Assembly (NCBI GenBank): GCA_025350465.1
Contig: JANXXU010000013.1
Coordinates: 44,182-108,181, forward strand
Length of the DNA: 64,000 nt
Origin: Alphaproteobacteria bacterium
GTDB lineage: Bacteria; Pseudomonadota; Alphaproteobacteria; Micropepsales; Micropepsaceae
Reading direction: 5' to 3'
Under the pieces are notes generated by a model, which did no database searches, was not told where the DNA came from, and worked only from the letters and a program-made list of their open reading frames with translations. Made by a program: the position numbers and the translations under genes. Position 1 is the stretch's first letter. Every line of letters begins with the position of its first letter. Below, in pieces: positions 37,066 to 40,754 of the stretch.

Positions 37066-37132
37066 GCCGTGATTGGTCCGTGTGGCGCCCCCACGCGTAT
37101 CTGCGTTCGGAACCGGACAACAGGAGACCGCC

Positions 37133-37651
37133 ATGACGCAGTTATCGAACCCCAACCTAAGCCGCCGGGCATTGCTGGGCGCGACGAGCGTCGTGGGTGT
37201 GCTCGCCGTGATCGGCGGAGCTTGGCGCTTCAACGCAAGCGCCCTCGGCGCCGGCAAGTTCGAGGTCGAGAAGAGCGACGCCGAATGGAAGCGCCTCTTG
37301 AGCCCGGACCAATACGCCGTGCTGCGCCAATCCGGTACGGAGCGCCCGTTCACCAGCCCGCTTGAGCACGAACACCGCAAAGGTATTTTCGACTGCGCCG
37401 GATGCGATCTAGCGCTGTTTTCCTCGACGAATAAATTCGACAGTGGAACGGGCTGGCCGAGCTTTTGGCAGCCGCTGGCGAATGCCGTTACGGAGACGAA
37501 GGACAGCTCGCTGTTCATGGAACGCACGGCCGTCTCGTGCCGGCGTTGCGGCGGGCATCTGGGCCACGTCTTCAACGATGGCCCGAAGCCGACGGGATTG
37601 CGCTATTGTATGAATGGTGTGGCGATGACGTTTAAGCCGACGGCGGCTTGA
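37133..37651 (+). CDS. msrB: Peptide-methionine (R)-S-oxide reductase with exported (Tat-like) leader
   Basis: 'LSRRALLGATSVVGVLAVIGG' leader; 'GIFDCAGCDLALFSSTNKFDSGTGWPSFW', 'CRRCGGHLGHVFNDGPKPTGLRYCMNG'. Confidence 0.95.
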   Translation: MTQLSNPNLSRRALLGATSVVGVLAVIGGAWRFNASALGAGKFEVEKSDAEWKRLLSPDQYAVLRQSGTERPFTSPLEHEHRKGIFDCAGCDLALFSSTNKFDSGTGWPSFWQPLANAVTETKDSSLFMERTAVSCRRCGGHLGHVFNDGPKPTGLRYCMNGVAMTFKPTAA

Positions 37652-37679
37652 GGCGCGCGTCCGCTTTTGAAGGGCGCCG

Positions 37680-38183
37680 ATGTTTGCAGTCGAGAGACCG
37701 GGCGGAACGAAAGTTGAAATTCACGCCGAGCTGCTGCGCCAAGCCCGGGGGATTCTTGAAGGTGAGCGCGATCCTATTGCCAACGCCGCGAACATCGCAG
37801 CGTTGATTTGGCACGGCCTGCCCGATCTCAATTGGGCGGGCTTCTATTTCCTGAAGCGCAGCGAGCTGGTGCTTGGGCCGTTTCAAGGCAAGCCCGCCTG
37901 CGTTCGGATCGCGGTGGGCAAAGGTGTTTGCGGTACGGCGGTAACGCGTCGCGCGCCGGTTCTCGTGTCGAACGTTCATGAGTTTGCCGGCCACATCGCT
38001 TGCGATTCCGCTTCGAATTCGGAACTTGTCGTGCCCCTTATTCGCGGCGGCAGCGTTGTCGGCGTGCTCGATCTCGACAGCCCAATGTTCGATCGCTTCG
38101 ACGGCGACGACAGCGCGTGCTGTGAAGCTCTCGCCCGACTGTGGGTTGCCGGCAGCGATCCGATGGAGAATCAAAATGCTTGA
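37680..38183 (+). CDS. GAF-domain free methionine-(R)-sulfoxide reductase (fRMsr)
   Basis: 'LIWHGLPDLNWAGFYFLKRSELVLGPFQGKPACVRIAVGKGVCGTAV...VPLIRGGSVVGVLDLDSP'. Confidence 0.93.
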   Translation: MFAVERPGGTKVEIHAELLRQARGILEGERDPIANAANIAALIWHGLPDLNWAGFYFLKRSELVLGPFQGKPACVRIAVGKGVCGTAVTRRAPVLVSNVHEFAGHIACDSASNSELVVPLIRGGSVVGVLDLDSPMFDRFDGDDSACCEALARLWVAGSDPMENQNA

Positions 38184-38424
38184 GCTGCGTCCGAATTGCG
38201 AATGTTGCGATCGAAACTTGCCGCCCTCGGTGAGCGGCGCGATGATCTGTTCCTTCGAGTGTACGTTCTGCGCGACGTGCGCAAGCGGCGTGCTCAAAGG
38301 CCAATGCCCGAATTGCGGCGGCAGTTTGATGCCGCGACCGACCCGCGCGATTACGCTGCTTGCCAAGTTTCCTGCGTCTGACGTGCGTAAACTGAAGCCC
38401 GCCGGCTGCACACCCGCGACATGA
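38176..38424 (+). CDS. DUF1272-type Cys-rich zinc-binding protein
   Basis: 'MLELRPNCECCDRNLPPSVSGAMICSFECTFCATCASGVLKGQCPNCGG'. Confidence 0.88.
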   Translation: MLELRPNCECCDRNLPPSVSGAMICSFECTFCATCASGVLKGQCPNCGGSLMPRPTRAITLLAKFPASDVRKLKPAGCTPAT

Positions 38425-38588
38425 AAGAAGAGCCGGACCGCCCGGTGTTCCAAGCGACCCGGCTCCGTCACGCGAGCACCTGCCGTGTAATGGGTGCCGG
38501 CAGGCGGCTGATTTCCATGGGGGGATAGAAACCAGCTGTCACGCCAGGAGGGGGCCTGGCACTGAAACCCGTTGGGGGAGGCCTCAGC
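38421..38588 (-). ncRNA. Candidate small RNA: five hairpins, three with C-rich loops, terminator at 3' end
   Basis: Hairpins (minus strand): CUGAGGCC(UCCCCCAACG)GGUUUCAG; GCCAGG(CCCCCU)CCUGGC; CUGGUUUCUAU(CCCCCC)AUGGAAAUCAG; CCUGCCG/CGGCAGG; terminator GAGCCGG...CCGGCUC-UUCUUUC; promoter-like TTGAGA-N19-TTTAAT upstream. Confidence 0.6.
38430..38465 (-). terminator. Terminator-like hairpin at 3' end of candidate sRNA / LysR transcript
   Basis: GAGCCGG...CCGGCTC then TTCTTTC on minus strand. Confidence 0.55.
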
Positions 38589-38592
38589 TCTC

Positions 38593-38623
38593 ATTAAATG
38601 GGTACAGGACGCGCATTTCTCAA
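38593..38623 (-). promoter_or_regulatory. Promoter-like pair upstream of candidate sRNA
   Basis: TTGAGA (38623-38618) and TTTAAT (38598-38593), 19-nt spacer. Confidence 0.4.
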
Positions 38624-38639
38624 GCGCGAGGCCCGGCGC

Positions 38640-39527
38640 TCAAAAGCTCCAATTGCGCGCTTCGTCGACCAGAAAATCCCGAAATACCGCCACTCGCTTT
38701 GTGCCTTTGAGATTTTCCGGATAGCACAAATGGACCTCGAATGAGGGGCCCGGCGTGTCGCACATCACGCGCACGAAATCCGCTTTGCCGGCGGCGAAAT
38801 AATCCGGCAGGGCGCCCAAGCCTACGCCTGTCTCGATCGCAGTGCCCATGCCGATGATGTTGTTGACGTAGAGCGCGGCCTTGCGCGGTTCGCCGGCCTT
38901 GCGTCCGACCTCGGCCAGCCAATTGATGTTCCTGAGTTCCGGCGGTGCGTCGCCGTAGACGATGACGGCGTGGGAATCGAGCTCGGCCGGGGAGTTCGGT
39001 TGCCCGCGGCGCCGAATGTAATCTCGCGACGCATAGACGTGGTAATTCACGTCGAACAATTTGCGCTGGATCAGATCGCTCTGCACGGGCTGGCGCATGC
39101 GCAAGGCGATATCGGCCTGGCGCTGAGCAAGATCGAGTTCGCCGTCGTCGATGATTAGCCGAACGTTCACATCCGGGTGCCGCGTGATGAATTTGTGGAG
39201 GCGCGGGGCCAGCCAATAGACGCCGATTCCCGTCGTCGCCGTCACACGCAGGTCGCCACGCGGCACTTCGCGGCTGTCGAGCAACGCTTCTTCGACGCCC
39301 GACAACTGCTCAAAGATCGTCTGCGTCGTGCGAAACAGCAGTTCGCCCTGCTCGGTCAGAATGAGACCGCGCGCATGGCGCGTGAAGAGAGGTACTCTGA
39401 GATCATCCTCGAGCGCGCTGATCTGGCGGCTCACGGCGGATTGGGAGAGGGCCAATTGCTCGCCGGCATGGGTGAAGCTGCCGGCGTGCGCGACGGCGTG
39501 GAAGACGCGAAGCTTATCCAAGTCCAT
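38640..39527 (-). CDS. LysR family transcriptional regulator
   Basis: 'MDLDKLRVFHAVAHAGSFTHAGEQLALSQSAVSRQISALEDDLRVPLFTRHARGLILTEQGE'. Confidence 0.95.
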   Translation of the reverse strand: MDLDKLRVFHAVAHAGSFTHAGEQLALSQSAVSRQISALEDDLRVPLFTRHARGLILTEQGELLFRTTQTIFEQLSGVEEALLDSREVPRGDLRVTATTGIGVYWLAPRLHKFITRHPDVNVRLIIDDGELDLAQRQADIALRMRQPVQSDLIQRKLFDVNYHVYASRDYIRRRGQPNSPAELDSHAVIVYGDAPPELRNINWLAEVGRKAGEPRKAALYVNNIIGMGTAIETGVGLGALPDYFAAGKADFVRVMCDTPGPSFEVHLCYPENLKGTKRVAVFRDFLVDEARNWSF

Positions 39528-39566: not shown

Positions 39567-40532
39567 TTACTCCGCCGCTTCTCTCAGCGTTGCGTGATGG
39601 GCCAGATATTTCTCTGCCTCGAGTGCCGCCATGCAGCCCATGCCGGCGGCAGTCACCGCCTGGCGGAAAATTCGATCTTTGACGTCGCCAGCTGCGAAGA
39701 CGCCGGGAACGGCGGTGCGTGTCGAGTCGGGCTCGGTGACGATGTAGCCGTCGGCGTCCATGTCGATTTGGCCCTTGAACAATTCGGTTGCCGGCACGTG
39801 GCCGATGGCAATGAACACGCCGTCCACCGGCAAATCGCTTAGGGCGCCAGTGTTCACGTCCTGAAGGCTCAGGCCCGTCACCGACTTCGGATCGTTGCTG
39901 CCGTGGACTTCGCCGATCACGCTGTTCCAGACCACCTTGATTTTCGGGTGCGCGAATATGCGGGCTTGCAGCATTTTTTCGGCGCGTAGCGCGTCACGGC
40001 GATGAATCAACGTCACCGAGGTCGCAAAATTCGTCAGGAAAAGCGCTTCCTCGACAGCAGTGTTGCCCCCGCCGACAACGGCGACATCCTTGCCGCGATA
40101 GAAGAAGCCGTCGCACGTGGCACATGCCGAGACACCATGACCTTTGAACATCTCCTCAGACGGGATGCCGAGCCAACGAGCTTGCGCGCCGGTGGCGATG
40201 ATCAACGCATCGCACGTGTAAACCGTGCCGCTATCGCCGATAAGGCGGATCGGGCGCGCGCGTAGGTCGGCGCTGATGATGACATCGTCATTCATTTTTG
40301 CGCCGACGTGTTCGGCCTGTGCCTTCATTTGTTCCATAAGCCAGGGACCTTGGATGGTCCCGGCAAATCCTGGATAGTTTTCCACATCGGTCGTGATGGT
40401 CATTTGGCCGCCCGGCTGAAGCCCAGCCACGATCATTGGCTCCAGCATGGCCCGCGTCGCATAGATCGCCGCCGTATAGCCGGCTGGACCCGAGCCCAGA
40501 ATCAGCACTCGCGAATGAATGGTCGACGTCAT
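39567..40532 (-). CDS. trxB: Thioredoxin-disulfide reductase
   Basis: 'RVLILGSGPAGYTAAIYATRA', 'GHGVSACATCDGFFYRGKDVAVVGGGNTAVEEA'. Confidence 0.97.
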   Translation of the reverse strand: MTSTIHSRVLILGSGPAGYTAAIYATRAMLEPMIVAGLQPGGQMTITTDVENYPGFAGTIQGPWLMEQMKAQAEHVGAKMNDDVIISADLRARPIRLIGDSGTVYTCDALIIATGAQARWLGIPSEEMFKGHGVSACATCDGFFYRGKDVAVVGGGNTAVEEALFLTNFATSVTLIHRRDALRAEKMLQARIFAHPKIKVVWNSVIGEVHGSNDPKSVTGLSLQDVNTGALSDLPVDGVFIAIGHVPATELFKGQIDMDADGYIVTEPDSTRTAVPGVFAAGDVKDRIFRQAVTAAGMGCMAALEAEKYLAHHATLREAAE

Positions 40533-40754
40533 GCGCCTCACTCTACGATTCGGTTTCACTGTGTAGGTATTGAGCCCGGGGTTCCGGCGCAATCCCTTGA
40601 CGGCCGCTTTCGCGGTTTCGTGTTGATTTTCGTACGAATAGGTAAGTTAGGGCCGGAATATTGCAGTTTTTCGCTTACGCGGCGCGGGCTTGGCGACCGA
40701 GAACATCATTGGAGGCTGGCGCCGCTGTTTCTCCAGCGAGCCCCCGTCTTCGTG

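Follow-up and report, generated by a model that had tools for sequence, protein, structure and literature searches.

The AbcR small RNAs (sRNAs; ar15, RF02345), compared here as they are found in Rhizobiaceae and Brucellaceae, are tandem RNAs of 114–121 nt with three hairpins, the anti-Shine–Dalgarno (aSD) motifs CUCCUCCC (aSD1, in the first loop) and UUCCCCUC (aSD2), and an A/U-rich Hfq region. The gene order in Agrobacterium is trxB-vtlR-abcR1-abcR2 (PMC7486931), and abcR1/2 of Sinorhizobium adjoin lsrB (PMC8844928). Sinorhizobium AbcR1 is preceded by a sigma70 promoter (CTTGAC-N17-CTATAT) with an LsrB box and AbcR2 by an RpoH1 promoter (CTTGAA-N16-CCTATAT). NfeR1/SmelA075 and SmelA099 (ar14, RF02344) fold into three to four hairpins whose loops are all aSD-like and whose stems are free to vary. 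The NfeR1 loops repress their targets at ribosome-binding sites, and the validated aSD loops of AbcR also act there. The CcsR1–4 "cuckoo" RNAs of Rhodobacter are stress-response sRNAs associated with alternative sigma factors, all four being cotranscribed with ccaF1. CcsR RNAs carry a C-rich loop motif.

The RNA locus behind trxB and lysR

The window analyzed here is a 64,000-nt stretch of DNA from a member of the Micropepsaceae. Between the stop codons of a LysR-type regulator gene (minus strand, 38640) and a convergent DUF1272 gene (plus strand, 38424), its minus strand carries, in this order, CTTGAG-N17-CCATTT, the hairpins H1–H4, and an intrinsic terminator (38624–38421; Table 1). The −35 element begins 16 nt beyond the end of the LysR stop codon, and the terminator overlaps the DUF1272 stop codon. 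The RNA is present in a single copy, and a search of its own genome for paralogues found none. Nearby (37073–38183, plus strand) are msrB and a gene whose GAF-domain product may be a free-methionine sulfoxide reductase, which makes this a redox-repair neighborhood.

Table 1. Coordinates of the genes and RNA elements at the locus (window positions).
Feature	Positions	Strand	Basis
trxB, thioredoxin reductase, upstream of the LysR gene	39567–40592	−	TIGR01292, 401.6 bits, above cut-off
LysR-type regulator gene, LsrB/VtlR-like	38640–39527	−	Pfam HTH_1 and LysR_substrate
Promoter: −35 CTTGAG (38619–38624), 17-bp spacer, −10 CCATTT (38596–38601); full match CTTGAGAAATGCGCGTCCTGTACCCATTT	38596–38624	−	
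Candidate small RNA, ~167 nt	38423–38589	−	Ends inferred from promoter and terminator
Hairpin H1, 10 bp with wobbles, loop CCCCCAAC, contains CCUCCCCC	38561–38588	−	MFE fold
Hairpin H2, 6 bp, loop CCCCCU (CCAGG-CCCCCU-CCUGG)	38543–38560	−	Fold
Hairpin H3, 12 bp, loop CCCCCC	38507–38536	−	Fold
Hairpin H4, accessory, 9 bp, 12-nt loop without a run of four C	38477–38506	−	Fold
Linker with GCGUGACG before the terminator	38467–38476	−	GCGUGA: invariant alignment columns in the genus
Intrinsic terminator: 17-bp stem (38429–38466), then U-rich tail CUUCUUUC	38423–38466	−	
DUF1272 gene, convergent with the LysR gene	38179–38424	+	PF06906

An earlier sequence-only reading had described three stacked C-loop hairpins, a fourth stem, and a terminator here, and all are present with small adjustments of extent. 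H2 is exactly as claimed; H1 lies where it was placed, with a wobble-containing stem of 10 rather than 8 bp; H3 keeps its CCCCCC loop on a stem of 12 rather than 11 bp; and the fourth stem and the terminator stem now span 38506–38477 and 38466–38429, with a tail to 38423. The −35 element TTGAGA (38623–38618) also stands. The −10 element is better read slightly upstream of the suggested TTTAAT, as CCATTT (38601–38596), because relatives have CYATCT at that place.

The folding energy of the minus strand of the RNA region was −92.3 kcal/mol against a mean of −72.5 for shuffled sequences (z = −4.42), and none of 200 shuffles was as good; the plus strand was not remarkable (z = −0.97). Among the MFE hairpins of the 10 genus loci, 22 of 41 had CCCC-containing loops, compared with 0.7 of 25.8 in shuffles that preserved nearest neighbors. 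A by-eye reading of the genus folds found a loop run of at least three C in 27 of the 29 H1–H3 hairpins, the exceptions being H1 and H3 of a single locus (L047), and the H2 loop has CCC or longer in 10/10 loci. The hairpin of the relatives that corresponds to H1 has UCUCCCCCAGA. On these sequence grounds, the multi-hairpin RNA on the minus strand beside trxB-lysR is confirmed as real and conserved, and it is predicted to be transcribed.

Conservation, covariation, and promoter

The LysR gene was found in 10 of the 11 genus genomes, including that of the window (the eleventh is 64% complete), and in 10/10 of these the RNA lies directly behind its stop codon. The set of hairpins varies: H3 is absent in one relative (L044), and H4 is an extra of the window, L039, and L040 that is missing from the other genus loci. 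At L043, DUF1272 was not found beside the RNA and the RNA was kept; hence, the RNA is not tied to the DUF1272 gene.

A covariance model (R1) built from five genus loci recovered the RNA in nine genomes when the family was scanned with strict filters and in all 10 with the filters off. Outside the genus it gave weak matches only, none of them adjoining the LysR gene, because the stems are too diverged. In the covariance-model alignment (A5), 97.2% of the cells are paired and 26 of 38 pairs are changed on both sides; none of 500 shuffles attained any of the five measures of covariation. Since A5 is fitted to the structure and displaces the hairpins of the window and L039 by one, the pairs of H1–H3 were recounted by hand from the individual folds. 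The hand count gave 180 paired cells of 181, with U-A/C-G, A-U/G-C, and G-C/C-G exchanges. H1 shows compensatory U-A/C-G and A-U/G-C pairs, H2 is paired in 50/50 cells with compensatory changes at three of its five pairs, and H3 is paired in 71/72 cells with compensatory changes at most positions. The terminator helix (A5) is 99.2% paired over 10 sequences, also with compensatory changes. Another alignment (A4) was left out, as it contained opposite-strand terminator matches, and MAFFT alignment of the whole RNAs put H1 out of register. The sequence-only reading had looked to a covariance search for conserved stems with compensatory changes and kept C-rich loops, which is what the relatives have; its proposal that several C-loop hairpins form an sRNA is thus supported by conservation, covariation, and the conserved promoter and terminator.

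The promoter motif is CTTG[AG][AGC]-N17-[CT][CT]ATCT in the genus and CTTGAA-N16/17-CYATNT in the sister genus, giving CTTGA[AG]-N16/17-CYATYT as the family consensus. Its strict form occurs at 9/10 genus loci (0.015 in shuffles) and at 6/19 sister-genus loci (0.02 in shuffles). When the entire own genome was searched with the strict motif, two matches came up, the RNA site and one other; a reversed control pattern gave none. The other match (L186, G000:C3:171836–171863) is located just upstream of a gene for a small secreted-looking protein that appears PepSY-like by eye. The LsrB box (GCAT-N3-TG-N3-T) is absent before the RNA in the genus loci. Because the motif is close to the AbcR2 RpoH1 promoter and the LsrB box is absent, the promoter resembles the RpoH type and is unlike the LsrB-box type of AbcR1; control by an RpoH-type sigma factor is plausible. 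This conserved, RpoH-like rather than LsrB-type promoter had escaped the sequence-only reading. The RNA promoter motif is lacking at two heat-shock genes of the genus, groES and clpB; groES has CIRCE and a CTTGAC promoter, and clpB a CTTGC[AC]-N16-CCCAAAT-like one.

In the sister genus (Rhizomicrobium-type, Micropepsales), most loci examined have an RNA of like build behind the orthologous LysR gene, with C-rich-loop hairpins and a terminator (examples are L079–L083, L085–L090, and L092–L094), and the RNA is absent at L084, L091, and L095–L097. These RNAs are usually preceded by CTTGAA/TTGAA and a CYATNT-like −10 element, and a single-stranded CCCAAGC just before the terminator is conserved in most of them (L079–L094). 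Two sister-genus loci are identical in 3′ sequence to loci of named records (L089 to L119, the latter from a Rhizomicrobium MAG; L094 to L116), which places the RNA family in Micropepsaceae, order Micropepsales.

Relation to AbcR, NfeR1, and CcsR RNAs

The best PDB match of the LysR protein was Agrobacterium LsrB (9HH1, E = 8.6e-91), followed by a match at 2e-36. A scan of named genomes kept 80 LysR relatives. For 79 of them the 3′ region had a readable length, and 76 of these have trxB upstream. With trxB and an LsrB-like LysR gene upstream, and AbcR behind this gene in Agrobacterium and Sinorhizobium, the RNA occupies the AbcR position; the sequence-only reading had missed the LsrB/VtlR-like identity of the gene behind trxB and hence this position. 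LsrB-like LysR genes were also seen outside Hyphomicrobiales, in Magnetovibrio, Thalassospira, Azospirillum, Sneathiella, and Kiloniella (L110, L135, L138, L148, L160, and L169), linked to trxB where the contig allows, contrary to the description of LsrB as unique to Rhizobiales (PMC11975290).

At gathering score, Rfam gave no match at the RNA locus, ar15 (AbcR) and ar14 (NfeR1) included, in agreement with the earlier statement that no known family could be assigned. Matches to Ms_IGR-8, P17, and ST7-AS1_2 at relaxed thresholds were due to chance. ar15 (gathering threshold 40 bits) did not match the locus even at relaxed thresholds, and across the 96 genomes searched in the order no match passed the cut-off. 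ar14 (cut-off 58.8 bits) was not found at the locus and stayed below the cut-off in all 41 genomes searched; the sister-genus RNAs L088 and L089 reached 32 bits, well under it. Weak ar14 matches elsewhere in the own and sister genomes (L245, L248, and L249) resemble ordinary terminators or coding sequence. In another alphaproteobacterial family, an ar14-like RNA with CCUCCUCCC loops (L243, G032:C1:2640689–2640814) scored 35.7 bits, below the cut-off.

The RNA is like AbcR1/AbcR2 in its position downstream of trxB-lsrB/vtlR, its C-rich loop stretches, and its intrinsic terminator, and like AbcR2 in its family promoter. Unlike AbcR, it is single-copy and has a larger number of hairpins, loops of plain C-runs, and neither an LsrB box nor an Rfam score. 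The AbcR motifs aSD1 and aSD2 are missing in the window, which has CCUCCCCC and CCCCCUCC instead, and the A/U-rich single-stranded Hfq site before the terminator is absent, the linker being GCUCGCGUGACG. Several hairpins with aSD-like loops on diverged stems are shared with ar14/NfeR1, whereas ar14 loops are identical (CCUCCUCCC) and those of the present RNA are CCCCC variants. C-rich loops are also a feature of the CcsR RNAs, of which the stress-sRNA type with alternative sigma factors is characteristic; however, the present RNA has a promoter to itself, occurs once, behind LysR, and is not cotranscribed with ccaF1. Thus, the RNA shares its position with ar15 and its architecture with ar14, and, judged by Rfam score, motifs, promoter, and Hfq region, it is neither. 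It appears to represent a new, unlisted family within a known kind of sRNA, differing in promoter and architecture.

In other Alphaproteobacteria, too, this LysR gene is followed by C-rich or aSD hairpins, a point in favor of the anti-SD sRNA proposed below. The LsrB box was found at 24/79 named loci (2.1 expected by chance), notably in Bradyrhizobium. Behind trxB-lysR of Bradyrhizobium/Afipia (L157, L161, L162, L166, L170, L175, L178, and L180–L182), there are an exact LsrB box such as GCATGTCTGACAT and a hairpin whose loop is rich in aSD sequence, for example GUCCCCCUCCUCCA. Scanned against Rfam, L157, L166, and L182 gave no match at gathering score; the RNA at these Bradyrhizobium/Afipia loci looks like an uncatalogued AbcR-type RNA. 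In a Tepidamorphaceae MAG, an ar15-like RNA lies directly behind the LysR gene (L128:3512–3643, plus strand; 37.5 bits, cut-off 40) and is a possible intermediate to AbcR. Sister-genus genomes also contain an ar15-like RNA (L102:1501–1606, plus strand; 38.7 bits) and a suhB/mmgR-like RNA (L103:1491–1570, minus strand; 37.4 bits); both are ruled out as the RNA of the LysR locus, since they lie on contigs other than that of the LysR gene.

Proposed function and alternative readings

Here, we propose that the locus encodes a trans-acting anti-SD sRNA with its own conserved promoter, the Micropepsales counterpart of AbcR/NfeR1-type RNAs; we hold this, with reasonable though limited confidence, to be the best explanation of the whole. 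An sRNA of ~167 nt would be transcribed from its own promoter just behind trxB-lysR and would correspond to the AbcR/NfeR1-type RNAs by position and general type. In its hairpins, rigid loops would carry short C-rich seeds, and the fast-changing, covarying stems would only display these loops. By pairing with G-rich Shine–Dalgarno (SD) stretches in several mRNAs, the loops would prevent translation. As the promoter is of the RpoH-like stress type, the RNA may be produced in response to heat or oxidative stress, beside the redox gene set (trxB, lysR, and msrB). By analogy, translational repression through pairing of C-loops with the SD is the most likely mode of action, because the build of the RNA matches NfeR1/ar14 and AbcR. 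The likeness to anti-SD and cuckoo-type RNAs drawn by the sequence-only reading is therefore apt at the functional level and at that level only, SD pairing and targets being predicted. In 464 kb of the own genome, with crude start calls, GGAGG was enriched before starts (7/81 versus 0) and pure G-runs were not, so pairing with ordinary SDs would be confined to the CUCC/CCUCC portions of the loops. The loops are mostly plain C-runs and not CCUCCUCCC, which speaks against the proposal. We also count against it the lack of an A/U-rich Hfq site, the different groES/clpB promoters, and the sister loci devoid of the RNA.

The RNA might instead be a true but extremely diverged AbcR homologue, derived from one ancestral gene behind trxB-lsrB, in which stems, loops, and promoter have drifted. 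Its position behind an LsrB-like gene is the same, some Hyphomicrobiales RNAs look intermediate (L128, with its ar15 score of 37.5 bits, and L107, with CAGCUGUUCCCCUCUGGAA), and H2 of L040 contains the AbcR aSD2 UUCCCCUC. Given that ar15 does not score at the locus even when relaxed, that the hairpin number differs, and that both the LsrB box and the A/U-rich Hfq region are missing, we regard this homology as unlikely, if still a serious contender. The main functional rival is a protein-binding role of the repeated loops, in which the C-rich hairpins would act as sponge or scaffold of a C-binding protein, the role that CsrB-type RNAs have toward CsrA. Similar loops repeated in a modular array of variable number (H3 lost in L044, H4 at three loci) would suit such a role, and the RNA-binding protein CcaF1 influences the maturation of CcsR RNAs; yet the characterized alphaproteobacterial RNAs of like build (NfeR1) base-pair at ribosome-binding sites via their loops, and a sponge seems distinctly improbable.

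Two further readings fare worse. An element that lies between converging genes and ends in a terminator could serve as transcription punctuation only, its hairpins and bidirectional terminator having no trans function, but one hairpin suffices for a terminator, and the upstream hairpins covary, keep their C-loops, follow a conserved promoter, and persist without DUF1272. We give this reading very little weight. That the region is a short-protein gene or a coding 3′ extension has a negligible chance of being correct: an ATG-started frame does run through the minus strand, but it continues antisense through DUF1272, a search of seven homologues of the RNA found no common ORF, and the stem changes are compensatory.

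With regard to the trans-acting anti-SD sRNA, a broader and more tentative picture, which we put somewhat below even chances, is that of an ancient module of trxB, a redox LysR regulator, and a C-rich-loop sRNA running through much of Alphaproteobacteria. In Micropepsales, the sRNA would have exchanged LsrB control for an RpoH-like promoter and developed into a modular C-loop array, an undescribed family with conserved loops but changing stems and a changing number of hairpins. To our knowledge, AbcR-type RNAs have been studied mainly in Rhizobiaceae and Brucellaceae. Now that Micropepsales is seen to have an LsrB-like gene with trxB and a C-rich-loop sRNA, and other orders to have similar genes, the origin of the regulator–sRNA pair and a possible exchange of its sRNA or promoter become directly testable. 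The family is also a clear example of an RNA in which conservation lies in the loops and not in the stems, a type that sequence-based catalogues overlook.
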